From positions 62,001 to 126,000 of the forward strand of contig NZ_JAUDBQ010000009.1 in assembly GCF_030372105.1 (NCBI RefSeq): a stretch of DNA of 64,000 nt, written 5' to 3'. The position numbers and the translations under genes were made by a program. This stretch comes from Cellulomonas cellasea. GTDB lineage: Bacteria; Actinomycetota; Actinomycetes; Actinomycetales; Cellulomonadaceae. The notes under the pieces were generated by a model. It saw only the letters and a list, made by a program, of their open reading frames with translations, searched no databases and was not told the origin of the DNA. Below are positions 12,619 through 38,819 of the stretch, piece by piece; positions within the stretch are counted from its first letter, which is position 1, and every line of letters begins with the position of its first letter.

Positions 12619-13721
12619 CGGTCGAGCTCTCCGCGGGTCTCCAGGACGGACTTCCAGCGTCGGTCCCGCTTCGCGCGGGGCCGCACGACGACGTCGAAGT
12701 AGTGCTGCAGCTTCTTCCCGTCCTCCGGGTTGTCCTTGAGCACGGTGCCGATGAGCTGCCGGGCGAGGTGTCCGCCGCCCACCTCGCCGTCGCCGAAGTA
12801 GTGGGCGTCCAGCGCCGCCGCGTATCCCACAGCGACAGCCTCGGCTGAGCTCATCACCGCGGTCGGCCTCTCGACGGCGATCCCGTCCGCCGTCACCCCG
12901 TCACGCAGATCGTGGAACGCCGTGACCAGCAGGTCCACGACATCCGGGGCGAGGCGGGTGTCGATGCCGCCCTGTGCGAGCAGCTCGGACGTCTGCTCCA
13001 GGATCAGGCGGCGCTCCAGGTCGCGGTCCCGGATCGGGCGCACCGTCTCGAAGTTGAACCGGCGCTTGAGGGCGCTGGACATCTCGTGGACGCCGCGGTC
13101 GCGCAAGTTCGCTGTGGCGAGGACGTTGAAGCCCCGGGCCGCGAACACGACGCTCTCCGGCCCGGCGAGCTCGGGGACATGGAGGACCTTGTCGGACATC
13201 ACGCCGATCAGGACGTCCTGGATCTCCGGCTGGACGCGGGTGACCTCTTCGAACCGGCACACGGCGCCGTCGGTCATCGCCCGGTGCAGGGGCCCCCGCA
13301 CGAGCGCGCGGGGGGTCGGGCCCTGCGCCAGCAGCAGCGCGTAGTTCCACGAGTACGTGATCTGGTCGTCGGTGGTGCCGGAGCTGCCCTGCACCGTGCA
13401 GGTCGAGTCGCCGGAGACCGCCGCGGCGAGCAGCTCGGACAGCATCGACTTCGCCGTGCCGGGCTCACCGACCAGCAGCAGGCCGCGGCTGCTCATGAGC
13501 GTCACGACGCACCGGTCCACCAGGGCGTCGTCGCCGTAGAACTTCCGGGTCACGCCGAGCCGTGGGTCGCCGACGATGAAGGCCCGCACCGCGCGGGGCG
13601 TCAGGCGCCAACCGGCCGGCCGGCTCCCGGCGTCGGCAGCGGCCAGGGCGGCCAGCTCGGCGGCGAACTCGACCTCGGCCGGGGCGCGCAGCACCCTGGT
13701 GGTCACCGGGTCAGCAGTCAC
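12615..13721 (-). CDS. MoxR-family AAA+ ATPase (YehL-like)
   Basis: 368 residues. Walker A is GEPGTAKS (about residue 85), the Walker B region is FEEVTR (Glu in place of the usual Asp, as often in MoxR proteins), and the sensor region is LATANLRDRGVHEMSSALKRRFNFE. MoxR ATPases are hexameric chaperones that work with VWA partners to remodel or activate metalloenzymes and other complexes. Here the VWA partner is encoded two genes downstream and the DUF4132 protein immediately upstream. No transmembrane segment. Confidence 0.9.
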   Translation of the reverse strand: MTADPVTTRVLRAPAEVEFAAELAALAAADAGSRPAGWRLTPRAVRAFIVGDPRLGVTRKFYGDDALVDRCVVTLMSSRGLLLVGEPGTAKSMLSELLAAAVSGDSTCTVQGSSGTTDDQITYSWNYALLLAQGPTPRALVRGPLHRAMTDGAVCRFEEVTRVQPEIQDVLIGVMSDKVLHVPELAGPESVVFAARGFNVLATANLRDRGVHEMSSALKRRFNFETVRPIRDRDLERRLILEQTSELLAQGGIDTRLAPDVVDLLVTAFHDLRDGVTADGIAVERPTAVMSSAEAVAVGYAAALDAHYFGDGEVGGGHLARQLIGTVLKDNPEDGKKLQHYFDVVVRPRAKRDRRWKSVLETRGELDR

Positions 13722-13723
13722 TG

Positions 13724-16700
13724 TCAGTACTCCGCCTTCTTCTGCCAGTCCGGGTCGAAGCCGCCGCCCTGTGCCGCCATCTGGCGCAGGTCATGCCAGC
13801 ACTCGGACACGAGGACCGCTGGGACGTCGCCGAGGGTGAGCTGCTCGCGCTCGGGCGTGCCGGGCCGCACGCGGTGGAAAGACAGCGTGCGCAGGGCCAC
13901 CAGGCGGTCCTCTTCGGGGAGCGTGTTCCCGGTGAACTCGACCTCCGCGACGATGCCGAGCGTCGGGAACCGCTTCGCGTAGGAGGTGAACCAGCCGCCG
14001 TCGCCGGGCGTACCGCGGGTGTAGCCCAGCCGGGTGGCGCGGCTCCGCAGCGCGAACGCCTGGAGCGTGTGCCCCTCGAAATCGTCCAGCGCGTGCCGCG
14101 AGCGGTCCTGCGCGGTGACGGCGTGCACGCCACGCCCGAGCTGCTGGAACAACGGGGAGATCTCGTAGTCGGCCAGGTGGGCGGTCCACGCCTCGACCTG
14201 GCCGGCGGTCAGGACGCTGTCATGCGCGAGCCGCACCCGTGCTGTCGCCCCCAGGGTCACCGGCTCGTCGTCGACGTCGGTGAGGCTCCCGTCGTCGAGC
14301 GGCCGGAACACGACCGGCTCGGCACCCGCGCCGTCGGTCGCGACCCACACCAGGCGCCGGACGGCCGGTCCCACGACGGGGTGCGCGGCGAGGTAGCGCT
14401 GCCAGTCCTCGGCCGACCACGACCGCTCGGTGCACAGCGCCTCGTACAGCCGCCGCGACTGCAGGTCTGCGACTGTCTTGACGTCCTTCTTCGCCATGGT
14501 GAGCGCCTTCTTGGCGGCCTTGGCCTGCTCGGGGTCGTCGGACTGCCGCGGCGCCGGAAGGGCCTTGATCGGCTTGCCGTCGGGGTCGCGCAGGACCACG
14601 GACAGGTCGGGGAGCAACCGGGCGGTGAAGACCCGTGGCCCATAGGACAGCTCGAGCAGCCCGTCGTCGTCGAACCCGCCCGTCGGGATGGTGCGGTCGG
14701 CCAGCTCGTCGACCGTCCACCCCTTGCGCTCGGCCAATGCCTGCGCCTGCGCCATGGCCTCCTCCTGGAAGCTCTTGGTGCGGAACCGGGAGCCGATGGC
14801 GAGCACGAGCTGCGTCGCGGACGGGTGGTCCACCCAGGCCAGCATGGCGATGAGGGCCTTGCCCTGGGCTGCGCGCTGGCCGAACCACTCGCGCAGGTAC
14901 CGCTCCGTGGGGGCGACAACGTCACGACCACCGCATGCCGCGATGACGGCGAGCACCCCCTTGCTGGAGATCGCCGATCCCGCCGGCTGTCGCAGATACA
15001 CGGGCAGCAGTGCTGCAGTCAGCTGCTCGACACTCATCCCGTGGAAGGGGCTGTCCGCGTCGCTCGCCACCCACTGATGGCTGCTCACGGCGTCATTCCG
15101 GGCGCGTTCCTCCGCGACGTCCGCGGGGATCGGGCGCAGGTCAGCCTGCAGCCACGCGGTCAGCAGGTGGTGCGCGAGCCGCTGCCTGTCAGCGGGCGCG
15201 AACAGTGCCGCGTACTGCCGCAGCACAGCGTCCGGCTCGGGCGAGCGGGCCTTGACGGCAGTCGCGCACAGCCACTGCACGACCTCGCGTGGCACCTTCT
15301 CCCCCGTGGCGGCCCAGGCGATGTCCGGGAGCGCGTCCCAGTCGCACCAGTCCAGCGCCGAGGGCAGCCCCTTGCTGACTGCCTTCGCCGCGTTCTGGCT
15401 CGTCGCCTGCGGGTCGAGGTAGGTCTCGGCGCTTTCACCCAGCGCGAGCAGGGCGTCGAGCAGGGCGCCGCGCACGACGTCGTTGCGTTCCTTGGCCCAG
15501 GCGGCCTGCAGCGCGGGAAGCGTCGCGGGATCCGCGAGCCGGGTCAGCCACTGCGTCGCGACGAGGCGACTGTCGCTCTTCCCGTCCTGAAGCCCGGCCG
15601 CCGCGCGGGACGCGATCTGGGGGACGCCGGCAAGCGCCTCCTGAGCGGGCCCACGCAGCGCCTTGCGGGACTCGAGCGCTAGCGGGACCAGGGCGTCGAC
15701 AAGCCGCGCGGGCCGCGCCGGCAGCGTGGCGGTCGCTGCGAACAGCGCGAGCTCGTCGACCTCCCACCCGGTGCGGGACGGCTCGGCGAGAATCCATTCC
15801 AGGTGCTCGGCGACGAACGGCCAGACGTCCGCGTCATCCCAGCCGCGTCCCAGCCGCGATCCGTAGGAGCGGGAGTAGGAGGCCCAGACCCGCGCGCGGC
15901 CGTCCAGTCCCATCTCGTCAAACATGACCTGGAGAGTGCGCAGGTCAGGCTTTCCGGTGCGGCGGTACAGGTCGTCCAGGACGGCCGCGCCCCCGCTGTG
16001 CGTGTCGCGCGTCTCGAGGATGCCGAGCGCGGCGATGAGCTTCACAGCGCTGACCGTGTCGAGGAGCCCGTCGCCGGCCAGCCGGAAGAGCAGCCGCGCT
16101 GGCGACCACGGCGGCGCCTCGAGCCACGGCTGTGTCGAGGGCGTCGCGTCGGAGACGAGCACCGCCACCACGTCCCGGAACGTGCGCTCCGTCGGCAGGG
16201 GCAATGCGCGCCCGGCCCCCTGCCCCGGCGAACGCGCCGTGACTCTCTGGTTGTAGCCCTCGATGGCGTTCGACAATTCCGCGACGAGGCGTTGCGCGCA
16301 CGCCTCCGCCGCCTGCCGGGGGACGGCCCAGCGGATCGGTGGCACAGGCTCGGGCCGGTCGTCATCCTCCGGCGAGTCGACGAGCGCCGCCGCGTCCCAC
16401 TTCGTGGCCAGGGCCTTGACGCTCGCGGCGCGATCGGCCAGCGCGGTCTTCCGGGCCCACTCGAACTCCTCGGGCCGGGCCGCGAGCAACTCGAGGGCGC
16501 GCCCGCGTACTTGAGGGCTGCCCTGGACCGCGGTGACTCGCAGCGCCGCCGATGCTGGACCAGCCACGCGCCCCAGGAGGGCCTCGGCGTGCTCGCGCAC
16601 CTGCCGGCTCGTCCCGGTGGCCGCCTCGACGAGCGGATCGACGACCGCCTCGAGCTCGTCGTCGGTGAGCGCGGCGCCGACGACGCCCAGCGCCGCGACC

Positions 16701-17341
16701 CGGGCGTCGACCGACTCCGCCGTCAGCATGGCCGCGACCCGGTCGGGGTGCGCGAGCAGCGCGTCGCCGAACCCGGGCAGCCGGCCCAGCTGCGCGCAGG
16801 TGTATCGCGGGCAGTAGTGCGACCGTGTCTCGATCGTCAGCATCGCGGTGACGAGCTCAGCAGGGTCCACCTCGTCCAGCGCGGCGATCCGCGCGATGTC
16901 GACGAAGCCGCCGGGCAGCGGCCCAGGCGCGGGGGTGGCAGCGACCATCTGGGCGATCATCAGGTCATGCCAGGACTTGCCGTCGAAGGGCGCCGCCGTC
17001 CTCCCCCAGACGCGCCGGCCCTGGACGGCGTCGAGGACGTGCCCCCACCTGCGCAGGACGGAGGCATCGACAGTTCCGAGCCCGGCATACAGGGACCGCA
17101 AGGCCGGCAAGTCGGCCTTGCCTGTGTCGCCATTCCCCCTCGGGAGCCATGAGATGTGGCTCGGGCTCATGAGGTTCGACAACACCCCCAAGACCGCGGG
17201 GTCGCGTCCGGTCAGCACATAGTCGGCGACCCGGCGGGCTTCCGGAAGTGAGGAGACGACCTTTTCCAGGTCCCGGACCCACGCCCGTGAGGGACGCCCC
17301 ACGGTGTCCACACCACGTCGTCTGAGCCCGAAAAGCGCCAT
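13724..17341 (-). CDS. DUF4132 domain-containing protein (YehI/MolR-like)
   Basis: About 1205 residues from ATG 17341, preceded by GGGAG at good spacing; the frame stays open further upstream. The middle contains HEAT-like repeats (for example ARLVDALVPLALESRKALRGPAQEALAG). The C-terminal ~250 residues, with KKDVKTVADLQSRRLYEAL, TLGDVPAVLVSECWHDL and a terminal DWQKKAEY, are the DUF4132 domain of the MolR/YehI family. It heads the five-gene operon. The size and repeats suggest a scaffold or the client of the MoxR-VWA machine. Function otherwise unknown. Confidence 0.8.
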   Translation of the reverse strand: MALFGLRRRGVDTVGRPSRAWVRDLEKVVSSLPEARRVADYVLTGRDPAVLGVLSNLMSPSHISWLPRGNGDTGKADLPALRSLYAGLGTVDASVLRRWGHVLDAVQGRRVWGRTAAPFDGKSWHDLMIAQMVAATPAPGPLPGGFVDIARIAALDEVDPAELVTAMLTIETRSHYCPRYTCAQLGRLPGFGDALLAHPDRVAAMLTAESVDARVAALGVVGAALTDDELEAVVDPLVEAATGTSRQVREHAEALLGRVAGPASAALRVTAVQGSPQVRGRALELLAARPEEFEWARKTALADRAASVKALATKWDAAALVDSPEDDDRPEPVPPIRWAVPRQAAEACAQRLVAELSNAIEGYNQRVTARSPGQGAGRALPLPTERTFRDVVAVLVSDATPSTQPWLEAPPWSPARLLFRLAGDGLLDTVSAVKLIAALGILETRDTHSGGAAVLDDLYRRTGKPDLRTLQVMFDEMGLDGRARVWASYSRSYGSRLGRGWDDADVWPFVAEHLEWILAEPSRTGWEVDELALFAATATLPARPARLVDALVPLALESRKALRGPAQEALAGVPQIASRAAAGLQDGKSDSRLVATQWLTRLADPATLPALQAAWAKERNDVVRGALLDALLALGESAETYLDPQATSQNAAKAVSKGLPSALDWCDWDALPDIAWAATGEKVPREVVQWLCATAVKARSPEPDAVLRQYAALFAPADRQRLAHHLLTAWLQADLRPIPADVAEERARNDAVSSHQWVASDADSPFHGMSVEQLTAALLPVYLRQPAGSAISSKGVLAVIAACGGRDVVAPTERYLREWFGQRAAQGKALIAMLAWVDHPSATQLVLAIGSRFRTKSFQEEAMAQAQALAERKGWTVDELADRTIPTGGFDDDGLLELSYGPRVFTARLLPDLSVVLRDPDGKPIKALPAPRQSDDPEQAKAAKKALTMAKKDVKTVADLQSRRLYEALCTERSWSAEDWQRYLAAHPVVGPAVRRLVWVATDGAGAEPVVFRPLDDGSLTDVDDEPVTLGATARVRLAHDSVLTAGQVEAWTAHLADYEISPLFQQLGRGVHAVTAQDRSRHALDDFEGHTLQAFALRSRATRLGYTRGTPGDGGWFTSYAKRFPTLGIVAEVEFTGNTLPEEDRLVALRTLSFHRVRPGTPEREQLTLGDVPAVLVSECWHDLRQMAAQGGGFDPDWQKKAEY

Positions 17342-17538
17342 CGCCATCTCCCTTGGGTCGATCCCGCCGCGAGCGTAGCGGCGCCCACCGACGCGAAGGA
17401 TCGACCAGCCTCGGGCAAATGGGTGGCACATCGCGCGACCGATCCTGTGCCGCCCTGGGAGATCCGTGCCCAGGTCAGAGCGCCAAGAGGCTCGTGATCA
17501 GCCGCCACGACTCCCGAGGTGACCGCGATGGCGCCGCG

Positions 17539-22657: not shown

Positions 22658-23563
22658 TCAGCCCGAGAAACCAGCGACGAGTTCGAGAAGACCTGACGCG
22701 GCGACGTTCGCGGCGACGTCACCTGCGAGAGCGATCGCACCGACTCGGACTCTCTCCACGAAGGTCCTGGTGCGCGCTCCGACTACACCGCCGTCCGCCT
22801 GGACCGCGGCACCGAACTCGGTGGCGTGCTCGGCGCTCAAACCGAGTTCGCGGGCCGCGCGAACCAGGTCCGCGAGGTCACCCTTCTTCACGGTCGAACG
22901 CTGCCGCGCGCCTTCGCCGGTGGCGATGTTGGCACCATCGCCGTTGACAGTGATGTTGAACGTCTGCACGACCGAGCCGAGCTGATGATCCGCAACGGTC
23001 GGACCCCCTGGTTCGCCAGCGTCTGGGGCGACGTCTTCGAGAGCCAGGGCTAGGTCCAGCACTCGAGTTCGGATCTTGTCGAGGATTCCGGCGAGCATCG
23101 TCCGTGGAACCACGAGCCACGCCTCAGAGAGCACGAGCAGCTCGATTCGAGCGCCGCCCTCTCCGTTACGCGTACGCCGGTCGTACTCGTTCACCTGGTA
23201 CGGGTCCCACTTGATCATCGGGTCGCGGTCGCCAGTGCTCAACCGCTCGAGCTCGGCCACAGGCTCGCGGAACTCGGTCGAGAATATCGTCAGGAAGTCC
23301 TCGGCAATGCCCGCGGGTGACACCTGGCCCGGGACGCTCAAGCCACCCGGGCCAGACCACGTGCCACGAGCCGGCAGGTGCCGCCGAGCGCGGTACTCCG
23401 GAAGGTCCTGATCCTGCCCGTAGCCGTTGAGCTCGTTGGTGGCCCACCGGGCGAGCGTGTCGTCACCGATTCTCGCGGCGAGGATCTTGACCTGACGGAT
23501 GACGTCGGAGAGCGACCGCGAGCCATCGGCCGCCTGGTCGATCAGAGTTGCAAGACGTGACAT
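22658..23563 (-). CDS. AbiTii-domain protein (abortive-infection type)
   Basis: 301 residues from ATG 23563, with GGGAG six bases upstream. The N-terminus (SRLATLIDQAADGSRSLSDV, then ILAARIGDDTLARWATNEL, NGYG) is the AbiTii domain, seen in abortive-infection proteins and other defence genes. A middle section follows, then a Gly/Asn-rich segment (FNITVNGDGANIATG) and a helical C-terminal part (GAIALAGDVAANVAASGLLEL). AbiTii proteins are linked to phage-induced growth arrest; their activity is not known in detail. It is divergent from the SEC-C gene (158-bp gap). The C-terminus looks shortened compared with the relic at 21.1-21.4 kb. Confidence 0.75.
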   Translation of the reverse strand: MSRLATLIDQAADGSRSLSDVIRQVKILAARIGDDTLARWATNELNGYGQDQDLPEYRARRHLPARGTWSGPGGLSVPGQVSPAGIAEDFLTIFSTEFREPVAELERLSTGDRDPMIKWDPYQVNEYDRRTRNGEGGARIELLVLSEAWLVVPRTMLAGILDKIRTRVLDLALALEDVAPDAGEPGGPTVADHQLGSVVQTFNITVNGDGANIATGEGARQRSTVKKGDLADLVRAARELGLSAEHATEFGAAVQADGGVVGARTRTFVERVRVGAIALAGDVAANVAASGLLELVAGFSG

Positions 23564-27514: not shown

Positions 27515-28669
27515 ATGAGCAGCAACGAGAGCATCGGCGAGCGCCTGGCGACGTTGGTCGCGCAGGTGTCGGTCGACCCGGCCAGCTTCGTCAGAGAGCT
27601 CGGCCTCCCCGCGAGCATCACGTTCGAGGACGTTTGTGACGGCACCTTCACCCTGGACGCATCCGACATCGTCGCGGCGTCAGACATCCTGGATGTCCCG
27701 ATCCCCGTGCTGACCGGGGATGTTCCCGTCGCGGGTCACCTCGGCGTTTCGTTGCGGCTTGGTCTAGTCGGCGATCGGGAGCAGACACCCGAAGCAGCCT
27801 TGTCGTTCGCAGACCGCGTGCTGTCGCACATGGATGTCCTCGACGCCGTTCTCGGCCCGGCGGCCCGCGAGGCGCACCCGCCGATGAGCACGCACTCGTA
27901 CGGCAAGCGTGCCGGGCGGGACAGCGCGGACCGCATCCGCCGTTCCCGCAAGCTGGGTCGCGACCCGGTGTCCGACCTCGTCGGGCTCGTGGAGTCGTAC
28001 GGTTTCCCAGTCATCTTCCAGGAGCTGCCCGAGGGCCTACACGGCATGAACGTCCGCGACCAGCGAAGCGGATCGGTCCGCCGGGTGATCGTGATCTCGA
28101 CGCGAGGAACCTGGCCGATGCAGCGGTACACCCTCGCGCACGAGCTCTGCCACGCCTTGTTCGACGACGCCGGACAGGTGATCTTCGACCACCTCGAGGA
28201 ACCCGATGCCATGGAGGAGGCCCGCGCGGAATCCTTCGCTCGCGAGCTCCTACTTCCTTCAGCGGCGCTCAGGAACGAGGTGACTACCCGCGGTCTTGGT
28301 CCGCGCTCCATGAGCGAACGGTGGCTGCGAGCCGTCCCCGACTTGATGCTGCGTTGGGGTATCAGCAGGCGCGCACTCGTCAGATCGCTGATTGAAGAGC
28401 GGCACGCGGCCGAGGCTGCCCTGGCTGACGTCATGAACCTGTCGGTGCGGGAGAGCATCGAGCGTGCCGGCCTGACCGAGCAGTGGTCGATGATGTGCGG
28501 TTCTGAGCACCTCCCGTCAGGTTCTCCGATGCTGACCGAGCGCGCCGTGCAGGCGTTCGGTCATGGGCACGTCTCGGTTCGGTTCGTCGCGGAAGTCCTC
28601 GACCGAGACGTCGAATCCACCGCGTCGGATCTCGCGTCCGCCGGCTGGCTGGAGCCGGTCCGGTCTTGA
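27515..28669 (+). CDS. ImmA/IrrE-family metalloprotease
   Basis: 384 residues from ATG 27515, preceded by AGGAGG. The zinc protease motif HExxH is in RYTLAHELCHALF (about residue 210), with a downstream glutamate in EARAESFARELLLPSAAL, the usual ImmA/IrrE pattern. ImmA/IrrE proteases cleave repressors or antitoxins in response to stress or phage. The N-terminal ~110 residues (IGERLATLVAQVSV and on) could be a degenerate HTH/sensor region, as in XRE-ImmA fusions. The C-terminal ~80 residues are helical. It converges on the PIN gene with one base between the stops. Confidence 0.88.
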   Translation: MSSNESIGERLATLVAQVSVDPASFVRELGLPASITFEDVCDGTFTLDASDIVAASDILDVPIPVLTGDVPVAGHLGVSLRLGLVGDREQTPEAALSFADRVLSHMDVLDAVLGPAAREAHPPMSTHSYGKRAGRDSADRIRRSRKLGRDPVSDLVGLVESYGFPVIFQELPEGLHGMNVRDQRSGSVRRVIVISTRGTWPMQRYTLAHELCHALFDDAGQVIFDHLEEPDAMEEARAESFARELLLPSAALRNEVTTRGLGPRSMSERWLRAVPDLMLRWGISRRALVRSLIEERHAAEAALADVMNLSVRESIERAGLTEQWSMMCGSEHLPSGSPMLTERAVQAFGHGHVSVRFVAEVLDRDVESTASDLASAGWLEPVRS

Positions 28670-28670
28670 G

Positions 28671-29468
28671 TCAGTCGCCCGTGACGGCGCAGTCCTGACA
28701 CTCGCCCTCGGTACGACGGCAAGTGAAGTCGTCCCGACCGCGCTGTCTGGCGTTCGTGGGAATCCCGGAGATGGCATGTCCAGCCTGAAACCGCGCCCAA
28801 CAGCTGTCGCAGTCGAGCGACGCATCGGAGCACGCGAGTTCGGCGAGCATGTCTCCTCCGTGACGTGACGGAAGGTGTCGCCTGCCCGCGACGACACTGG
28901 CCGCGGCGTCGTTCGTAAGCAGGACGTTGCGCCGGTCCGGGCGGTCATTGGCCGCCCGCGAAGCCAAGACGATCAGTTCGGCTTCGCCGCCGTGACTCTT
29001 CTTGGCGTTGGTGTTCGACATCGCTGCCAGCTGCTGCTTGATGGGCTCGATGAGCGGAAGCTCGTGGTCAGTGAGTCGCTGGACCTGCAGCGCTGTGGGT
29101 CCGAGCAGCAGAGCGTTGATCGCGGCTGTCGCGGCTTGGTACCGCGCGTGCTCGTCCTCGGGTGCATCCACCGCGGGCGCGTCCCGCGCGAACCCGCGGA
29201 CCTCACGGTCGACCTTCGGTCCGAGGTAGGCGCGGTTAGCGTAGTGGGTACGAAGCCGGTCGAGTGTGTCCCCGTAGGTACCGGCGAACAGGAACACACC
29301 GGTGTCGATCCACACGCTTGAGTCTTGCCACCCACGCCGCGGGATGCTGCTCGCTACCTCGTACCGCACGCTCACCGGCGCGGCCGACGCCGGTCGTACG
29401 GGAATCTGCGGGAGGCGACGGCGCGGAATGTCCGCCGGCGATACGGGCTTCGGGGTCGACACGGTCAC
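28671..29468 (-). CDS. PIN-like ribonuclease with Cys-rich tail
   Basis: 265 residues. The first PIN motif is VWIDTGVFLF (catalytic Asp), followed by GEAELIVLASRA with the acidic residue of the second site and LLTNDAAASVV for the third, the order of PIN/DUF4411-type nucleases. The C-terminal ~60 residues have seven cysteines (CSDASLDCDSCW, CRRTEGECQDC), enough for a zinc-binding knob. PIN proteins usually cleave RNA as toxins. It follows the dual-Cas4-like gene by 20 bp on the same strand, so the two are co-transcribed, and faces the ImmA/IrrE gene tail to tail. Confidence 0.7.
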   Translation of the reverse strand: MTVSTPKPVSPADIPRRRLPQIPVRPASAAPVSVRYEVASSIPRRGWQDSSVWIDTGVFLFAGTYGDTLDRLRTHYANRAYLGPKVDREVRGFARDAPAVDAPEDEHARYQAATAAINALLLGPTALQVQRLTDHELPLIEPIKQQLAAMSNTNAKKSHGGEAELIVLASRAANDRPDRRNVLLTNDAAASVVAGRRHLPSRHGGDMLAELACSDASLDCDSCWARFQAGHAISGIPTNARQRGRDDFTCRRTEGECQDCAVTGD

Positions 29469-29488
29469 CTTTCCTAGCTGTCGGCGGA

Positions 29489-31108
29489 TCAGAACGTTGC
29501 GGCGCTAGCCGCCCCTGATCCCGGGAGGGTGCCTAGGCCATTCGCCCAGACGTCTCGGTCTAGGCACCACCGGCGCACTGGACACCACGTACAGGCTGGC
29601 GACGGCGTGGTCAGCCAGTCGGTGTCGTTGTGCCACGGCTCGGCGACCGTTTCGAGCTGGGACTCCGCGAGCATCATCGTCTCGTCGTCGTCCGTGCTCC
29701 AGGACCAAACCCGCGCGTCATCGACCGTGAGGACCTCGAGCTCGACGACTCCGCGGTCGAAGCCATGATGCTCGGCGAGCCCGCTCGCGAGTGCTCGAAG
29801 CGCGAAGGGCACCTGAAGGTGCGCGTCGAACGCCTCGTTTGCGGAGCCCGGAGGCATCTCGGTGGTCTTGACCTCACGAAGGATCAGCGACGAGCCGTCG
29901 GAGTACACCAGGTCAGGCGCGAGCGCGACGACCACCTCGGCGTCGTGGTCGTACCCCCGCAACGACTCCTCGATCGCAAGAACGCGCGGTGACGGAACCG
30001 CCGCCAGGGGGCAGCAGCCGACGTGCCGCATCAGGAACGGTCGCGCGACGGCGTAGTCCTCACGGTTCAGCGTCTCGGTGCCGATCATCGCCCGACCCAA
30101 CGTCGACGGGAGGTCCGCCGCGGTGCACGGCACCCCGCGGGCATGAGCAGCGCGCAACCAGGTGTGCACCGCACGCCCGCGGTCCGCTGCGGGGGAGCCT
30201 GTGTCCTCGCGAGGCACACCCGCCGCGGTCATCATCCACTGGGCGGGGCACGCCTGGTAGGTGCGCAGGTCCGTCGGCGACACCGCTCTGCTCTCGACCC
30301 CGCGACTGTCTTGACCGAGGAACCCGTCGAGATCGAGCAGGCCGGGGCAGACTCCGGCAGCCTTGCAGTCACCGCAAGAGCGAGACGCCTGGACGTGGTC
30401 TGCGTCGCACAGCGCACGCGCCCGTGGCTGCCCGTAGCAGGCGTACGCAGCCTTGGCAGCGGCGACGTCACCGTCGAATGTGACCGCGGTCGAGCCGTCG
30501 AGCAGGCCGATCTCGACGACCTGGATGCGCGCGGGCGCTGCGCGTCCACGGATCGTCGCCGCGATCCCCGCAGCCGTCGCGGACCAGGGATCCACCCCGT
30601 CGAATGCTGCCGGGTGCGCTGACTTCACCCGAAGGCGATGTACCTGGCGCAGGCCGTTGTCCCCGTCATACACATCAGCCCACACTGACAGCGAGCGCCC
30701 TTGCTGCCCGACCTCCGGGTCCGACTTGATCAGGTGAAGCGGACCGCTAGTCGCCTCGATCGAGTCGCGCGCGTCGACCACGTTCCACACGGCGTGCTCA
30801 ACCCACGGCCGCAGCTGGCGCACCACCGGGCGCGAGTCGAACGCACGGGCGATGGCGGCACCGATCTCGCTCGGGCTGTGAACGATGGGCGAGCCGAGCG
30901 AGCGGACGATGTCACGCACGTGCTTGAGAGCGAACCGGTCTGGGACGGTCCGGGCCGCCCACAGGCGGCGCCAGCCGCTGACGTAGGCATGTCTGCGTAC
31001 CTTGAGCGACAGGAACTGCCCGCAGGGGCTGGTGCTCTCCACGTCGGACGCGGACACCCACACCGAGTCACGGTCTCCCTCGACCGTGACCGACGGGTTC
31101 CAGTTCAT
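29489..31108 (-). CDS. Protein with two tandem PD-(D/E)XK (Cas4/RecB-like) halves
   Basis: 539 residues from ATG 31108 (ATG 31150 possible). The second half (about 280-530) is a Cas4/RecB-like nuclease: SPTDLRTYQACPAQWM with the first Fe-S cysteine, LILREVKTTE with the E-x-K pair (Glu412/Lys414), and CTWCPVRRWC with the last three cysteines (C-x2-C-x5-C). The first half repeats the layout: SASDVESTSPCGQFL, SVWADVYDG, HRLRVKSAHP where the E of E-x-K is Arg, and CGDCKAAGVC with identical C-x2-C-x5-C spacing. One half looks active and one inactive, each with its own Fe-S site. It is upstream of the PIN gene in one operon. A helicase partner is not present nearby. Confidence 0.7.
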   Translation of the reverse strand: MNWNPSVTVEGDRDSVWVSASDVESTSPCGQFLSLKVRRHAYVSGWRRLWAARTVPDRFALKHVRDIVRSLGSPIVHSPSEIGAAIARAFDSRPVVRQLRPWVEHAVWNVVDARDSIEATSGPLHLIKSDPEVGQQGRSLSVWADVYDGDNGLRQVHRLRVKSAHPAAFDGVDPWSATAAGIAATIRGRAAPARIQVVEIGLLDGSTAVTFDGDVAAAKAAYACYGQPRARALCDADHVQASRSCGDCKAAGVCPGLLDLDGFLGQDSRGVESRAVSPTDLRTYQACPAQWMMTAAGVPREDTGSPAADRGRAVHTWLRAAHARGVPCTAADLPSTLGRAMIGTETLNREDYAVARPFLMRHVGCCPLAAVPSPRVLAIEESLRGYDHDAEVVVALAPDLVYSDGSSLILREVKTTEMPPGSANEAFDAHLQVPFALRALASGLAEHHGFDRGVVELEVLTVDDARVWSWSTDDDETMMLAESQLETVAEPWHNDTDWLTTPSPACTWCPVRRWCLDRDVWANGLGTLPGSGAASAATF

Positions 31109-31548: not shown

Positions 31549-32382
31549 TCATGCGCCGAGACCGAGAACCCGCCGTTCATATGAGTTGAGCTGGCCTGAG
31601 CACAGAGCCCACCCGGACACCTCTTGAACCGTGCGCGCGACATCCCGCACCGCCCGCGTCACGATCTCGCTGTCCGCCTGATCCGGTGCCACGTCGACCC
31701 ACCAGAAGATCATGTCCCGGAAAAAGGCGAGGGACAGGTAGCCGCCGACGTCGACCAGCACTTCGTCGTAGGCGGCCGGGTTGCCTTGCCCGTCCTCGCC
31801 CTCGCTAGTCGCCTCGCGCACGGCGTGTCCCGCCGCTCGCAGCCGGTTGGCGATCGCGTGAGACCACTCGTGCCCCTGGGCGGTGGTAGTCGCATCGACG
31901 TGCGCCCCCGCGGAGATGGGCTCACCGCCAGCGGTGAAGTCGACCTGCATCCGCAGGCCCGCCCATGCGGGGTGTTCCGCCTTTGCCGTCAACCAGCCCG
32001 GAGTCATTTCGGCTGCACGGGGATAGCGTTCCGCATCCGCGGCCCACGACAGTGGCGCGAACGGGTAGGCCGGCTCATTGTCATAGTCAAAATTGGTCTC
32101 GATACGACCGTCCGCATAAACCGTGACGGCGGCCGTGTACCAGGTTCCCACCCCGGGGTGGTACATACGTTCGCGAAGCCCTCCGAGAACTATTCTCACG
32201 TCCCGCGGGATCTTGGCGTCGACCGTCACCTCGCCTGCCTGGGTCAGCGCGACGATGTCATACGTAGCAGTAGGTCCTACTCGCTGATAGGTGAGGGTCA
32301 CACTCGCCCACCCGCCGGGGGCGATAGAAGCGAGTCCAGCGCCAAGGGCTTGGAGGTCGTCAGGTGCGGGCACGGTTGTCAT
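31549..32382 (-). CDS. YezG/DUF600-family immunity protein
   Basis: 277 residues. Segments WYTAAVTVYADGRIETNFDY, PAYPFAPLSW and AAEMTPGW match the YezG (DUF600) immunity family, whose B. subtilis member neutralises the LXG DNase YeeF. The protein is about twice the usual length. The C-terminal part (EVLVDVGGYLSLAFFRDMIF) repeats a similar alpha/beta pattern, possibly a second immunity domain. Its start overlaps the toxin stop by 4 bp, as expected for a toxin-immunity pair. It should act in the cytoplasm of the producer. Confidence 0.75.
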   Translation of the reverse strand: MTTVPAPDDLQALGAGLASIAPGGWASVTLTYQRVGPTATYDIVALTQAGEVTVDAKIPRDVRIVLGGLRERMYHPGVGTWYTAAVTVYADGRIETNFDYDNEPAYPFAPLSWAADAERYPRAAEMTPGWLTAKAEHPAWAGLRMQVDFTAGGEPISAGAHVDATTTAQGHEWSHAIANRLRAAGHAVREATSEGEDGQGNPAAYDEVLVDVGGYLSLAFFRDMIFWWVDVAPDQADSEIVTRAVRDVARTVQEVSGWALCSGQLNSYERRVLGLGA

Positions 32383-33956
32383 TGCTCGAACAGTACCTTT
32401 CCGGCCTTCTGCCCGTCGACGAGGACGTCGATATCCATTGAGTCGGGACGCAAAGAGTCGGTTGGATACTCAAGGTCGATCCTCAGATCGATGTGCGCCC
32501 CTGGGTTCGCTGCCGCGATCGAGCGAATTTGGGCCTCCATTCCGCCATAATCGCCGCCACCACCGTTGATGAGCTTATGCAACGGCACCAGGTTGATGCC
32601 CTCACCTGCCCCGCCTCCACTCGCGGCGATCAGGTGTCCTCCGACATCATCTGGCAACCGGTCCGTTCCGCCAGCGATGCGTTGTTGATAGTTGTTGCGG
32701 CTCGCCTTCGCGTCAACAGAGTTGGTCGGCTCCCACCGCCCTTCGACGTGGTCGACCCGGCCGAGGTGGTCGGTGACGTACACGTTGCGCCCGTCGACGA
32801 CGTACACGCTGTTGGGTGCGGGGCGGTGTAGTTCCTTGTTCCACCCAAGTCGCTGTCCGGACACCTCGACGCGCAGGGCCTTGTCGGGGAAGCGCTTGGC
32901 GATCTCGTCGACCTGGAGGAGGCGTCGCGCAGAGGCGTCCGGCGTGACCGGCCAGAAGCGGATCTGACCTGCGTCGCTGGGAAGTCCGCTGGCGAGCATC
33001 CGCCCGTTCCAGAACCCAGACACTGATTGGCTCAGGGAGCGGGAGGCGGACACCAGCGCGGAGTTCTGCACCAGCGAGCGGGTGCCCGACCGCACCGCGC
33101 CCGTCACGGCCGCCCGGGTGCTGATGGTGGCCCCGGCGCGTGCGCCACGGACGGCGGCCGCGCCGGCGCCGGCGGTGAAGATCGCGATGATCGCGTCGGG
33201 TGCGAGGGTGCCGAGCGCGCGTGCTGGGCTGGTGTGCCAGGTGTCCCAGTCGATCAGGTCCTTGGCGAACTGCTTCGGGTCGTGCAGGGAGGTCCACAGG
33301 CCCTCGATGAGGGACCTCTTCGCCTCGACGGCGCCGTAGGGGTCCCAGAGGAACCGGAAGCTGTTCTGCTCCCACACGAGGATGCCGAGGTCGCGGACGG
33401 CTCCCCATGCGCCCTGCCCGAACTCTGAAAGGTGGTATCCGACCTGGTTCCAGAATGTGGGGTCGATGGGCGCGTCCCTCGTGGCGGCCTCGACGACGGC
33501 CGCGGCGGCTCGGGCGGCGGCATTGACGTCGACGCGTAGACGCTCGAGCTCGGCTTGGGCGCGGATCTGCTCGGGCGCGAGAGTCGGCAGCAGCCCGGTG
33601 GCCGGGACGCAGGGCGCGGTGCGCCATTGCCGGGCGAGTTGGCGGGCCCGGGTCTGGGAGTACTCGAGGATGTCGGCGTGCCCGCGCAGCGCGTAGGCGG
33701 CCTCGCCCAGTGCGGTTCCTGCGACAGCGAGGCGTGTGCTCAGGTCTCCCTGGGCGGCGGCGAAAGCGGTCTGCGCCTGACCGGTCCAGTCGCCCAAATT
33801 GGTGCCTGCGACGGCGCTCGAGGCCCAGGTGAGGTCCTGGGCCAGCGTGTCGATTCGGCGCGCGTCGGCGCGGAGCGCCTGCGGGTCGCCGGGGATGAGG
33901 AGTGTGGGATCAGACGTGGAAGCGAGTGAGGGGCCGAGCATCGAGGCAGAGGTCAC
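32379..33956 (-). CDS. LXG/WXG-type polymorphic toxin with DNA/RNA non-specific endonuclease domain
   Basis: 525 residues from GTG 33956. The N-terminal ~200 residues are a helical WXG100/LXG-like secretion domain (DARRIDTLAQDLTWASSAVA, NLGDWTGQAQTAF with the W-x-G turn). A Gly/Ala-rich linker (about 250-290) precedes the C-terminal toxin domain, where DDVGGHLIAASGGG holds the catalytic His441 and GINLVPLHKLINGGGGDYG the conserved Asn, matching Endonuclea_NS_2. The same toxin class occurs in B. subtilis YeeF, whose immunity protein YezG is homologous to the next gene. It should be exported by the type VII ATPase encoded divergently and degrade target-cell DNA. Confidence 0.85.
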   Translation of the reverse strand: MTSASMLGPSLASTSDPTLLIPGDPQALRADARRIDTLAQDLTWASSAVAGTNLGDWTGQAQTAFAAAQGDLSTRLAVAGTALGEAAYALRGHADILEYSQTRARQLARQWRTAPCVPATGLLPTLAPEQIRAQAELERLRVDVNAAARAAAAVVEAATRDAPIDPTFWNQVGYHLSEFGQGAWGAVRDLGILVWEQNSFRFLWDPYGAVEAKRSLIEGLWTSLHDPKQFAKDLIDWDTWHTSPARALGTLAPDAIIAIFTAGAGAAAVRGARAGATISTRAAVTGAVRSGTRSLVQNSALVSASRSLSQSVSGFWNGRMLASGLPSDAGQIRFWPVTPDASARRLLQVDEIAKRFPDKALRVEVSGQRLGWNKELHRPAPNSVYVVDGRNVYVTDHLGRVDHVEGRWEPTNSVDAKASRNNYQQRIAGGTDRLPDDVGGHLIAASGGGAGEGINLVPLHKLINGGGGDYGGMEAQIRSIAAANPGAHIDLRIDLEYPTDSLRPDSMDIDVLVDGQKAGKVLFEQ

Positions 33957-34424: not shown

Positions 34425-37400
34425 GTGGTGCGCACACGCCTGACAGTCCGCCATGGCCAAGGCCACACCGATGTGGTCGTCGGCACCGACGCTGCGGCGA
34501 CGGTGGGCGACGTCGCCGGGGCGCTCGTCCGCGCGGGGACAATCGCGGGGCAGGTCGGCACCCCGACCTTGCAGGCTGTGGCTCCCGATGGCATTCCCGG
34601 GCCCGTGCTGCGGCCGGCGACGCTGCTCACGGACGCGGGTCTGCGTTCGGGGGCGACCGTCGCCGTCGCCGATGCCGGCGCACGGTTCGTCGCTCCGCAC
34701 GCGGGAGGCGCCGTCCTGCGTGTGCATGTCGTGACGGGGCCTACCGCCGGAGCCGTGTTCGACCTGCCCGCCGGAGTCTCGGACGTGGGGCGAGGACCTG
34801 AGTGCGAGGTTCGCCTCAACGACCGGCAGGTCTCGAAGAAGCACGCCCGCCTCGTCGTGACCGACCAGGTGCTCATCGCGGACTCCGGGTCACTTAACGG
34901 CGTCGTCGTGGACGGGGGGCGTGTCGACCGGGCGGAAGTCCGCCCGGGTCAGGAGGTGAAGGTCGGCGACTCCACACTCCGCATCGAGTGGCTGGTGGAC
35001 GCCACGACGATCGTCGCCGGGGGCGCTGCCATCGCGTTCAACCGCTCTCCGCGGGTCGTGCCTCGGTATGCGGAGCGATCTGTGCAGGCCCCCGAGCCGC
35101 CTGCGCCTGCGTCCCCCGGCAGATTCCCCTGGGTGGCGATGGCCGCTCCGATCGCGATGGGCGCGGCCCTGTATGCGGTCACCCGTTCAGTGCTCTCACT
35201 TGTGTTCATCGCGTTGTCCCCGCTCCTCGCGGCCGGGACGTGGGTGGACAAGAAGATCCGGGACCGCCAGCAGCTCAAGGACGGCACCGCCCAGTTCCGC
35301 ACTGCGTTGGACGCTCTTCGAGAAGAGATGACCGCCGCCCACGAGGAGGAGCAACGGGTCCGCCGCGAAGAGGAGCCCGACACCGACGCCGCAGTGCAGG
35401 CTGCGTTCGCCGCGGATCCTGTGCTGTGGTCGAGGCGCCGCGAGGCGGACACGTTCGCCACTCTCCACCTCGGACACGGCACCGACGCCTCGCGCACGAC
35501 AGTCGCGATGCCGTCGCGTGGTCGCGCGCTGCCTGACCTGTGGGCAGAACTCGAGCGCACAGTCGACGCGTTGCGCGACGTCGCGTCGGTGCCACTGCTG
35601 GTGAACCTGCGCGCCGCTGGCGCGTTCGGACTCGCCGGCCTGCAACGCGACGACACCGCCCGCGCCCTGGTGGCGCAGCTCGTCGCCTTGCACTCCCCGG
35701 CGGACCTCACGGTCGCCGCGTTCGCGTCCAAGCGCACGGCCGGCACCTGGGAATGGCTGAAGTGGCTTCCGCATGTCGCCGGACCGCACACCCCGCTGGG
35801 CGCCCCGCACCTGGCGGCGTCGCCTGCCCCGGCGCGGGCGCTCCTGTCCGCGCTCGAGGAGCTCGCAGCCGCACGTAGCCCGCGCAGCGGCGCTCAGACG
35901 TCGCGGTACCCGATGGTGGTCGTGCTCGTGGAGGACGACTGCCCGGCCGATCGTGGGCGGCTGGTGCGACTTGCGGAGGTGGGCCCGGCCGCCGGGGTGC
36001 ACTTGGTGTGGGTGGCCGATCGGGTGCGCGACCTGCCCGCCGCCTGCACGGTGTTCCTGGATCTGGCCGACCCAGCCGCGCCGCGCCTGGGGTCGACCAC
36101 TGACCGGGCTTGGCGCCCGGCAAACCCGCCAGGTATCGACGCGGGCACCGCGGTGGCGTTCGCCCGGCACTTGTCCGCGTTCAACGACGCCGGAGCGCCC
36201 ACCCTTGACGAGTCGGACGTCCCCCGGCACGTCACCTACCTGCAGGTCGCCGGAACAGATCTCGCAACCGACTCGTCCGCTGTGATCGACAGGTGGACGC
36301 AGACCGCCTCGATACTGGACCGCGACGCGCCGCCTGCCCGCCGGACAGCCGACGCGTCCTTGCGGGCTGTCGTCGGCGTCGGCGCAGATGGCGACTTCGC
36401 GTTGGACCTGCGCGAGCAGGGCCCCCACGCGCTGGTCGGCGGGACTACCGGGTCGGGCAAGAGCGAGTTCCTCCAGTCCTGGGTGCTCGGCATGGCGTCC
36501 GCGCACTCCCCGGACCGCGTCACGTTCCTGTTCGTGGACTACAAGGGCGGGGCCGCGTTCGCAGACTGCGTGCACCTGCCGCACTGTGTCGGGCTGGTCA
36601 CCGACTTGACTCCCCACCTGGTCCGCCGCGCGCTGACCTCCCTGCGCGCCGAACTGCGCCGCCGTGAGCGCCTCCTGGCGGCCAAGGGCGCCAAGGACCT
36701 GCTCTCGCTCGAACGCACCGGCGACCCGGACACACCGCCGGCCCTGGTCATCGTGGTGGACGAGTTCGCCGCCCTGGTGTCCGAGGTGCCGGAGTTCGTC
36801 GACGGCATGATCGACATCGCCCAACGCGGGCGCTCCCTCGGGCTCCATCTGATCCTGGCGACGCAGCGGCCCGCCGGCGTCATCAAGGACAACCTGAGGG
36901 CCAACACCAACCTGCGGGTGGCGCTCAGGGTCGCCGACGCCCACGACTCCACCGATGTGCTCGGAACCGACCTCGCGGCGAAGTTCGACCCTGCGCTCCC
37001 CGGTCGCGGTGCTGTGCGCACCGGCCCCGAGCGGGTCGCGATCTTCCAGACCGCCTACGCGGGCGGCCACACCCCAGCCATGCCACCGCCCCCACCCGTC
37101 GACCTGTCGACCCTGGAGTTCGGGCCCGGAGTGCCGATCGATGTGCCCTCCGACAACCGGACCAGCGGACGCGGCGACGGCTCGAGCGACATCTCCCGGG
37201 TGGTGGCCACGATCCGCGCGGCAGTCGCGACCGCGGGCATTCCCGCCCCGACCCGCCCGTGGCTGCCCGAGCTGCGCGACCTCTACGACATCGCCCACCT
37301 CCAGCCGAGCGGGAGTGACAGCGTCGTGTACGGCGTGGTGGACGTTCCCAGCGAGCAGAAGCAGAGCGCCGCGGCGTGGAACCCGGACCAGCACGGGTCG

Positions 37401-38819
37401 ATCGTCGTGCACGGCACCACCGGCTCAGGGAAGTCCGCGACGCTGCGGACCATCGCCGCCGCGACGCCCGGCCCAGTGCACGTGTACGGCATCGACGCCT
37501 CGTCCGGCGGTCTGGACATGCTCGAACCGCTGCCACAGGTGGGCGCGATCATCGACTCGGACGACACCGAGCGCGTCAGCCGACTCACCAGCCGTCTTGG
37601 CGCGCTTCTCGACGAGCGCGCCACCGCCTTCAGCACCGTGCACGCCGCATCGCTGACCGACTTCCGCGCCAAGACCGGGCGGAGCGAGCCGCGCGTCCTC
37701 GTGCTGATCGACGGGCTCGGAGCCCTGCGCGACGCCTACGAGACCGACCTCGCCCACCAATCGGTGTGGGCCGCACTGGCACGTGTGGTCACCGAGGGAC
37801 GGCCCCTCGGCGTGCACTTGGTCGCCTCCGCCGAGCGCGCCGCCGCGGTCCCCACCACCTGGGGCGCCTCCATCGGATACCGGGTGGTGCTCAGGCAAGC
37901 CGACGAGAACGCCTACGTCGCGTACGACATCCCCCGCGATGTCCTGGCCTCCACGTCACCGCCCGGTCGTGGTGTGCTCGCCGGGACTGACACCGAACTG
38001 CAGGTAGCCGTGCCCGGCGGTTCGGCGGACCCCGCCGATCAAGCAGCAGCCCTCCACCGCCAGGCCACCGCCGAGCCCGACGCAAAGGCCCCGACCATCC
38101 ACCGGCTACCTGCCCTTATTGCAGGTGAGGCCATCCCCTCCGACGTCGACGCCTTCCCCGTGCTCGGAGTCGCCGGGGACACCCTCGAACCTCTCGGCTT
38201 CGACCCTTCGGGCGCGATCGTCGTCGCAGGCTCGCCCGGCTCCGGACGCTCCACCACACTCGTGTGGCTCGCCCACGCCATCCGCCGCGCCCGACCGCAC
38301 GCCCACCTGGTCTACATCGGCAATCGGCGCTCCCCAGCCGCGTCCGCCCCGGACTGGGCCGAGCGGGCGCTCACGCCAGAAGACGCGGCAGACCTCGCAC
38401 GCGAACTCACCGTCGCGGTCGCTGACGAACCAGGCCAAACACCGGTCGCACTGGTCGTCGAGGCGCTTGCCGACTTCATCGGCACACCTGCAGAGGCCCC
38501 ACTACTGGCTCTGATGAAGGCCGCCCGGCGAGGCGGCCACCTTGTCGTCGCCGAAGGCGACACCCCCGCCTGGGCATCCGGCTGGCCACTGATCGCCGAA
38601 GTCCGCAACGCCCGCCGCGGGCTCGTCCTCGCACCCGAGCCGACCGACGGCGAAGCGCTGTTCCGTGTGCAGTTCCCGCGCACGGCACGCGCCGCCTACC
38701 CGCCCGGGCGAGGCGTTTGGGTGGAAGGCGGAAGGGCGCGCGTCGTTCAGATCCCGATGCCACCACCTAGCCCTGCGCCGCCCCACCCCAAGACGCTCGC
38801 CCTAAATATGGGCATCTGA
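34425..38819 (+). CDS. essC: EssC/EccC-like type VII secretion ATPase with FHA domain
   Basis: 1464 residues. Residues 1-85 form a beta-rich, possibly ubiquitin-like domain. An FHA domain follows (about 100-185; VGRGPECEVRLNDRQVSKKHA). Two transmembrane helices lie near 225-270. Three FtsK/SpoIIIE ATPase domains come next: GTTGSGKS (Lys679) with Walker B LVIVVDEFAAL, GTTGSGKS (Lys1003), and a third GSPGSGRS where the P-loop lysine is Arg1275. This is the motor of type VII secretion; degenerate later ATPase domains are usual and bind substrate. It is divergent from the toxin operon and upstream of a WXG100 gene. GTG 34425 or GTG 34428 can start. Confidence 0.92.
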   Translation: MVRTRLTVRHGQGHTDVVVGTDAAATVGDVAGALVRAGTIAGQVGTPTLQAVAPDGIPGPVLRPATLLTDAGLRSGATVAVADAGARFVAPHAGGAVLRVHVVTGPTAGAVFDLPAGVSDVGRGPECEVRLNDRQVSKKHARLVVTDQVLIADSGSLNGVVVDGGRVDRAEVRPGQEVKVGDSTLRIEWLVDATTIVAGGAAIAFNRSPRVVPRYAERSVQAPEPPAPASPGRFPWVAMAAPIAMGAALYAVTRSVLSLVFIALSPLLAAGTWVDKKIRDRQQLKDGTAQFRTALDALREEMTAAHEEEQRVRREEEPDTDAAVQAAFAADPVLWSRRREADTFATLHLGHGTDASRTTVAMPSRGRALPDLWAELERTVDALRDVASVPLLVNLRAAGAFGLAGLQRDDTARALVAQLVALHSPADLTVAAFASKRTAGTWEWLKWLPHVAGPHTPLGAPHLAASPAPARALLSALEELAAARSPRSGAQTSRYPMVVVLVEDDCPADRGRLVRLAEVGPAAGVHLVWVADRVRDLPAACTVFLDLADPAAPRLGSTTDRAWRPANPPGIDAGTAVAFARHLSAFNDAGAPTLDESDVPRHVTYLQVAGTDLATDSSAVIDRWTQTASILDRDAPPARRTADASLRAVVGVGADGDFALDLREQGPHALVGGTTGSGKSEFLQSWVLGMASAHSPDRVTFLFVDYKGGAAFADCVHLPHCVGLVTDLTPHLVRRALTSLRAELRRRERLLAAKGAKDLLSLERTGDPDTPPALVIVVDEFAALVSEVPEFVDGMIDIAQRGRSLGLHLILATQRPAGVIKDNLRANTNLRVALRVADAHDSTDVLGTDLAAKFDPALPGRGAVRTGPERVAIFQTAYAGGHTPAMPPPPPVDLSTLEFGPGVPIDVPSDNRTSGRGDGSSDISRVVATIRAAVATAGIPAPTRPWLPELRDLYDIAHLQPSGSDSVVYGVVDVPSEQKQSAAAWNPDQHGSIVVHGTTGSGKSATLRTIAAATPGPVHVYGIDASSGGLDMLEPLPQVGAIIDSDDTERVSRLTSRLGALLDERATAFSTVHAASLTDFRAKTGRSEPRVLVLIDGLGALRDAYETDLAHQSVWAALARVVTEGRPLGVHLVASAERAAAVPTTWGASIGYRVVLRQADENAYVAYDIPRDVLASTSPPGRGVLAGTDTELQVAVPGGSADPADQAAALHRQATAEPDAKAPTIHRLPALIAGEAIPSDVDAFPVLGVAGDTLEPLGFDPSGAIVVAGSPGSGRSTTLVWLAHAIRRARPHAHLVYIGNRRSPAASAPDWAERALTPEDAADLARELTVAVADEPGQTPVALVVEALADFIGTPAEAPLLALMKAARRGGHLVVAEGDTPAWASGWPLIAEVRNARRGLVLAPEPTDGEALFRVQFPRTARAAYPPGRGVWVEGGRARVVQIPMPPPSPAPPHPKTLALNMGI

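Follow-up and report, generated by a model that had tools for sequence, protein, structure and literature searches.

A conserved three-gene module of a tandem Cas4-like protein, a PIN-like protein and an M78 protease in Cellulomonas cellasea

In Cellulomonas cellasea, three adjacent genes encode a tandem Cas4-like protein, a PIN-like protein, and a protease of the M78 (ImmA/IrrE) family. Do these genes belong together, and if so, what might a DNA nuclease do beside a predicted toxin and its predicted regulator? The genes occupy positions 27515 to 31108 of the window, the whole stretch of 64,000 nucleotides analysed here (contig NZ_JAUDBQ010000009.1, positions 62,001 to 126,000). A first-pass annotation, made from the sequence of the window, had proposed that they form an undescribed conflict system in a defence island. 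Our reading of the open reading frames (ORFs) places the three genes where that annotation put them (Table 1). The M78 protease gene and the PIN-like gene face each other tail to tail with their stop codons 1 base apart, as had been described. The PIN-like and tandem genes are on one strand with a gap of 20 bases, suggesting that they are co-transcribed.

Recurrence of the three genes

The first-pass annotation had proposed a search for the same neighbourhood elsewhere. A tblastn search of 72,556 plasmid records with the tandem protein returns two matches, on plasmids of Rhodococcus antarcticus (NZ_CP110616.1, 42%; locus L006) and Streptomyces albidoflavus (NZ_CP108380.1, 33%; locus L007). On both plasmids, a homologue of the PIN-like gene comes next, followed by a facing gene annotated as ImmA/IrrE metallo-endopeptidase. 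When the plasmids are searched with the PIN-like protein, only these two records match. A scan of contigs with a three-row alignment, which used only two short patterns, gives four further loci. Verrucosispora sediminis (L012) has all three genes, and three Aeromicrobium species (L009, L010, and L011) have the tandem gene, with PIN and M78 genes absent within the 13.5 kb seen.

The window and the three other complete loci thus have the three genes in the same order and orientation. The PIN and protease genes are tail to tail in 4/4 loci, with gaps between the stop codons of +1 base (window), +18 (L006), -4 (L007), and -29 (L012). Identity to the window proteins at the other three loci is 32-42% for the tandem protein, 29-38% for the PIN-like protein, and 29-45% for the protease, for which a three-row alignment gives 46% at best. 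Because order and tail-to-tail layout are the same in four loci at 29-46% identity, comparison of the loci indicates that the three genes are a real conserved module, present in the window and at three loci of three genera. The same evidence makes it highly improbable that a PIN/M78 toxin-antitoxin pair lies beside a mobile PprPDDEXK nuclease by chance. Each part is found apart elsewhere, consistent with chance neighbours, but the identical arrangement at this divergence and the return of the same two plasmid records by the PIN and tandem queries disfavour them. As a separate observation, the Rhodococcus tandem protein (WP_265385008.1) probably begins 32 codons before its annotated start, as the upstream frame (L006:7995-8090) has the first conserved cysteine.

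Table 1 Features of the three-gene module (window positions)
Feature	Position	Strand	Remarks
M78 protease (ImmA/IrrE metallopeptidase), 384 amino acids	27515..28669	+	ATG start; probable N-terminal helix-turn-helix (HTH); predicted antitoxin/regulator
N-terminal HTH-like region, about residues 1-75	27515..27739	+	homology to HTH_31-M78 protein of L073
HELCH zinc-binding motif, H209-H213; E235-x2-A-x2-FA downstream	28139..28153	+	HExxH type
PIN-like protein, 265 amino acids	28671..29468	-	GTG start; predicted ribonuclease toxin
Cysteine-rich tail, C213...C250-x6-C257-x2-C260	28689..28832	-	four cysteines invariant in 4/4 module loci
Tandem Cas4-like protein, 539 amino acids, PprPDDEXK family	29489..31108	-	PADLOC PprPDDEXK E 1.7e-49; Pfam PDDEXK_1
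C-half, Cas4-like nuclease domain (predicted)	29492..30304	-	D387, D399, E412, K414 and four cysteines
E412-V413-K414 catalytic motif	29867..29875	-	E in 26/32, K in 25/32 aligned proteins
N-half, apparently degenerate Cas4-like domain	30305..31108	-	four cysteines kept, catalytic residues lost; hhalign, 32-row residue table

The module looks rare and sporadic, and partly plasmid-borne (2/4 loci), as judged from samples of 394 and 295 genomes and the one two-pattern scan. The tandem protein has no match in 6 congeners (0/6). A four-row PIN profile (threshold E <= 1e-5) matches 1/394 genomes of the class, namely its own, and 2/295 genomes of the genus of G314 (L072 and L073). A search of the 394 class genomes with the single PIN-like protein gives its own genome and two marginal short matches (E 6.7e-4 and 9.1e-4). 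An addiction module that maintains a plasmid or island, without acting against phages, would fit the plasmid location of two loci and a toxin-antitoxin core. We consider it very unlikely, as it leaves unexplained a DNA nuclease whose active site is kept in all four module proteins.

The tandem family extends well beyond the module. A profile search of the 394 class genomes (match threshold E <= 1e-10; flanks of about 7 kb per side, less near contig ends) gives matches in 28 genomes, one of which is the window's own. In six of the other 27, the tandem gene directly precedes PprRE, PprDinG, and PprPIWI (L046, L047, L055, L058, L063, and L064). In nine, it comes right after a separate single-domain Cas4-like gene (L042, L048-L054, and L057), whose product matches Pfam PDDEXK_1 in L054. 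The remaining 12 have neither context (L043-L045, L056, L059-L062, and L065-L068, with L068 a contig of 5.5 kb). Genome G110 (L008) provides a seventh pPIWI-RE-linked tandem gene, checked with Pfam and PADLOC.

In a quick tree, supported by SH-aLRT values only, the tandem proteins of the four module loci and of the three Aeromicrobium species form one clade (SH-aLRT 99), apart from the pPIWI-RE rows. Three proteins were left out of the tree and of the residue table described below: those of L062 and L067, whose matches span <380 residues, and that of L068, whose E of 1.8e-11 is above the limit of 1e-20. The Aeromicrobium rows are nested among the module rows; therefore, the simplest account of the tree would be one joining of the nuclease with the PIN/M78 pair, followed by one loss. 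The Aeromicrobium tandem gene is at one chromosomal site in the three species. The order in L011 is xseA, a small xseB-like ORF (called by eye), the tandem gene, DUF4245, and glpX.

The two halves of the tandem protein

The PADLOC match of the tandem protein to PprPDDEXK spans positions 71-442 of the 449 in the profile, and the Pfam PDDEXK_1 match covers residues 276-515 (E 3.4e-21). Matches to PADLOC Cas4 profiles are weak (best E 0.0041). The likeness to the PprPDDEXK protein of pPIWI-RE systems (PADLOC PDLC02423) extends over residues 138-516, including both cysteine sets and the C-terminal nuclease layout. However, PprPDDEXK precedes PprRE, PprDinG, and PprPIWI in those systems, and the window protein is in another clade of the quick tree. 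The L008 PprRE, PprDinG, and PprPIWI proteins give no match within the window. A genome-wide search with RNaseH_pPIWI_RE also gives no match, but its control was found in 0/14 genomes, so that absence from the whole genome is not shown. By these comparisons, the tandem protein is a member of the PprPDDEXK family, but its locus does not qualify as a pPIWI-RE system. We also rejected identity with CRISPR Cas4, because Cas1 has 0 matches in the genome (control found in 9/14). The protein shares with Cas4 the PD-(D/E)XK motif with four cysteines, but the unit is in tandem here and one half is degenerate.

The available text of PMC3702460 describes pPIWI-RE as a three-gene island and does not mention the fourth gene, PprPDDEXK. 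The available text of PMC10991935 is likewise without mention of it, and the name, which is in PADLOC, was not found in the papers searched. No description of the three-gene combination turned up in the literature searched, in which subscription papers and bioRxiv preprints are poorly covered. The proposal of an undescribed system therefore holds for the combination, apparently, and not for the parts, which are of known kinds; the tandem nuclease family was already known, and the PIN/HTH-M78 pair had been predicted as a toxin-antitoxin type.

The first-pass annotation had read the tandem protein as a Cas4-like layout repeated twice, each half with its own cysteine set and only the second with an E-x-K pair. 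Both sets are present, as C29...C245-x2-C248-x5-C254 and C287...C506-x2-C509-x5-C515. In a residue table of 32 aligned tandem proteins, including that of the window, the cysteines at 245, 248, 254, 287, 506, 509, and 515 are found in 32/32, and C29 is found in all 29 rows that reach that position. In the C-half, D387 is conserved in 32/32 proteins and D399 in 31/32, and E412 and K414 form the E-x-K motif (Table 1). The R160-V-K162 of the N-half, which had been read as the counterpart of E-x-K, is not a conserved motif, because K162 is found in 1/32 aligned proteins. D145 is also found in 1/32, and in both cases the one protein is that of the window. When the N-half is aligned by hhalign with a single-domain nuclease, Y147, not D145, is opposite the nuclease aspartate, and the printed motif windows of the 32-row table contain no aspartate at position 147.

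The single-domain Cas4-like nuclease used in this comparison is the product of the gene found directly before the tandem gene in the nine loci mentioned above. The N-half profile aligns with it over 230 columns with an hhalign probability of 69% (E 4e-5), and two reversed controls give 0.1% each. The N-half and C-half align with each other at 22-24%, which is weak alone, with the last three cysteines and the ExK strand in register; the reversed comparison gives 0.6-0.8%. According to these profile comparisons, the repeat of the Cas4-like layout is more than chance, and the N-half resembles a nuclease of this family that has degenerated. A search of solved structures with the tandem profile gives no match up to E 0.1.

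The catalytic residues of the C-half are not kept throughout the family. One family of six rows (L056, L059, L060, L061, L065, and L066) has lost both E412 and K414, so that the catalytic residues are gone in both halves, and has kept the covered cysteines. In the L008 tandem protein, the K of E-x-K is replaced by A. Because the cysteines are kept wherever covered and E412 and K414 are lost in several rows, the cysteines are evidently more constrained than catalysis. The proteins dead in both halves may be DNA sensors or scaffolds. The cysteine pattern has the iron-sulfur (Fe-S) spacing of the Cas4/AddB type, which suggests that the cysteines bind Fe-S clusters.

A viral origin of the tandem protein was considered and rejected. 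A search of 50,697 phage records (E <= 0.01) gives no match to it, and IMG/VR pattern scans (two for the tandem protein and one for the PIN-like protein) confirmed no relative.

The PIN-like protein, the M78 protease, and a possible mechanism

Residues D55, E89, E162, and D187 of the PIN-like protein, as well as C213, C250, C257, and C260, are invariant in 4/4 module loci. When the distant relatives of L072 and L073 are added to give a six-row alignment, D55, E89, and E162 are still invariant. All four module proteins have the cysteine-rich tail, already noted in the first-pass annotation, and these two relatives lack it. The best structure match is the PIN domain of PDB 1o4w, with an E of 0.22 for the four-row profile and 0.026 for the six-row profile. 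The Streptomyces member (L007) is the sole one of the four with a match to PIN_4 (E 0.00089, 20.0 bits, below the cut-off of 21.9). The conserved acidic residues and these matches point to a PIN fold, and the protein is predicted to be a ribonuclease toxin. PADLOC gives no match for it at E <= 1, and thus no RmrT partner as in RosmerTA. In L072 (2930-7072), the distant PIN relative adjoins a protein with two HATPase matches, a possible separate conflict system.

The conserved cysteines, of which the tandem protein has eight and the PIN tail four, would also suit a redox-zinc switch, in which the M78 protease is activated under oxidative stress by metal from the cysteine sites of its partners and not by single-stranded DNA. 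We regard such a switch as quite unlikely: the Fe-S spacing noted above is a feature of nucleases and not of sensors, and nothing links the cysteines directly to the protease. In its favour, IrrE is reported to be activated by redox and zinc (PMC7907104).

The protease matches Pfam Peptidase_M78 (E 2e-11) and, in PADLOC, RmrA (E 8.2e-12; residues 125-277, the protease part) and CapP (E 1.2e-11). The four-row profile finds IrrE 3dte (E 1.1e-11) and 8slm (E 2.1e-11) among solved structures, and H209, E210, H213, and E235 are invariant in 4/4 module loci. The sequences of the module thus retain metal ligands as well as cysteines. The alignment of the module M78 profile with the HTH_31-M78 protein of L073 spans positions 5-370 of 391 (E 1.7e-34). 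Because this alignment is nearly end to end, the module protease probably has an HTH at its N-terminus.

IrrE being the best solved relative, the module could be a stress-response or DNA-repair operon, in which the M78 protein would be a DNA-damage sensor like IrrE, with a repair nuclease and a ribonuclease under its control. The position of the tandem gene after xseA and an xseB-like ORF, at one chromosomal site in three Aeromicrobium species, is consistent with a repair role. However, the full trio occurs sporadically (PIN profile in 1/394 class genomes, tandem protein in 0/6 congeners) and plasmid-borne in 2/4 loci, and IrrE is described as acting on a separate repressor, DdrO, of which no counterpart is seen in the module. 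A repair operon is therefore unlikely.

Close parallels include two-gene pairs. L073 has a gene for HTH_31 and M78 followed by a PIN gene, and the 13 kb retrieved around them contain no tandem gene. The L073 PIN protein has two plasmid matches, with an ImmA/IrrE gene alongside in 2/2. Since PIN and M78 pairs exist without the nuclease, the module may be regarded as having a toxin-antitoxin core. Fusions of Xre and COG2856 were found to share operons with toxins of the PIN or RelE type, proteolytic cleavage of a repressor or antitoxin of the Xre family was proposed, and a PIN/ImmA type of toxin-antitoxin system was predicted in 2009 (Makarova 2009, PMC2701414). The module resembles these pairs in having an M78 protein with an HExxH motif and a probable HTH beside a PIN-like protein, and homologous two-gene pairs were found; it differs in that its genes are convergent rather than co-directional, its PIN-like protein has an added cysteine tail, and a third gene is added. 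An ImmA antitoxin node is associated with PIN-like domains, and one RosmerTA gives phage defence (PMC10440598). Like RosmerTA, the module has an ImmA-protease antitoxin candidate, matching RmrA, and such antitoxins often carry an HTH; however, in the phage Kita system that was tested, RmrT depolarizes membranes and is not a PIN protein, and the available text of that paper describes no Cas4-like gene (PMC10440598). CapP/CapH and IrrE/DdrO share the M78 protease family, but are described as cleaving a separate repressor, and none is seen in the module. Separately, an ImmA/PIN two-gene pair on a Streptomyces plasmid (L081:2817-8498) directly precedes genes for DUF2397, TIGR02678, and TIGR02680.

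We give about even chances to the reading that the locus is a conflict module of the toxin-antitoxin type to which a DNA-processing nuclease has been added, with an M78-controlled PIN toxin and a captured Cas4-like protein that together couple DNA attack to dormancy. The PIN protein would be the toxin, a ribonuclease, and the HTH-M78 protein would regulate and neutralise it, as in the COG2856-Xre/PIN pairs and RosmerTA. The tandem protein, one catalytic Fe-S-type nuclease joined to an inactive copy, would grip and trim DNA ends. Invading or broken DNA would be bound and trimmed by the tandem protein, and the resulting single-stranded DNA would switch on the M78 protease. The protease would then cut the HTH region of the repressor or antitoxin, presumably its own, in cis or in trans, because no separate Xre gene is seen in the module. 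The freed PIN toxin would finally halt growth, possibly with an anti-phage effect. This model draws on the literature on M78 antitoxins cited above, on the activation of PprI by single-stranded DNA, for which the same is cited for CapP (PMC10904395), and on the argument that DNA-targeting nucleases are coupled with toxins, in which Cas4 is discussed (PMC3506569).

Several observations weigh against a toxin-antitoxin-type module of this kind. The window PIN-like protein has no Pfam match, and in single-sequence hhalign comparisons the PIN profile gives no signal with either of two PF01850 PIN proteins encoded in the genome (2/2). The HTH is assigned by homology, with no direct Pfam HTH match in 4/4 module M78 proteins. 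A shared operator for the HTH had to be rejected: in none of the 4 loci does a repeat common to the two promoters, or a palindrome, surpass the best of 20 single-base shuffles. The M78 and PIN genes converge, whereas the two-gene pairs form one operon. The module profiles detect PIN/M78 linkage in 0/27 of the other tandem-family genomes in the class sample. Lastly, the close relatives in Aeromicrobium stand alone beside xseA, indicating that the nuclease can work without the PIN/M78 pair.

A bolder version is considerably less likely. The tandem Fe-S protein, with one live and one dead Cas4-like domain, would be a shared DNA-recognition adaptor, serving a PIWI-RE helicase-nuclease complex in one lineage and a protease-guarded PIN ribonuclease in another; in the module, a two-step suicide device of a new kind, its DNA products would act straight on the M78 protease as the trigger that frees the toxin. 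If so, the subgroup that is dead in both halves and retains the cysteines would be pure DNA sensors. The conflict module given even chances above would be a concrete candidate for the coupling of DNA attack to programmed dormancy. The locus links two hitherto separate themes of defence, M78-protease toxin-antitoxin systems and the pPIWI-RE nuclease, in one small cassette, in which a PprPDDEXK protein could be studied apart from the PIWI machinery.

Genes around the module

The defence-island setting proposed by the first-pass annotation is thin. Among 15 other window proteins scanned with PADLOC, AbiTii is the sole clear match (22658-23545; Pfam E 8.5e-32, PADLOC E 1.3e-33). The methyltransferase encoded at 25593-26372 matches PADLOC mad2 partially (E 2e-21, profile 267-405 of 492). 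It is probably generic, because its Pfam and NCBIfam matches extend to numerous methyltransferase families, with daptide methyltransferase below cut-off (E 6.5e-27). A Wadjet system at 7-19 kb of the window is unsupported by PADLOC, and Pfam gives DUF4132 and DUF5682 there. The DUF5682 protein (818 amino acids) is encoded near the DUF4132 protein (1235 amino acids) at 10162-17431, with no PADLOC match up to E 0.001.

On the other side, a type VII secretion system (T7SS)-signal protein with a DNA/RNA non-specific endonuclease domain is encoded beside the module (32379-33956). The gene adjoining it (31549-32382) has no family above cut-off, and an EccC/EssC-like protein is encoded at 34425-38819.

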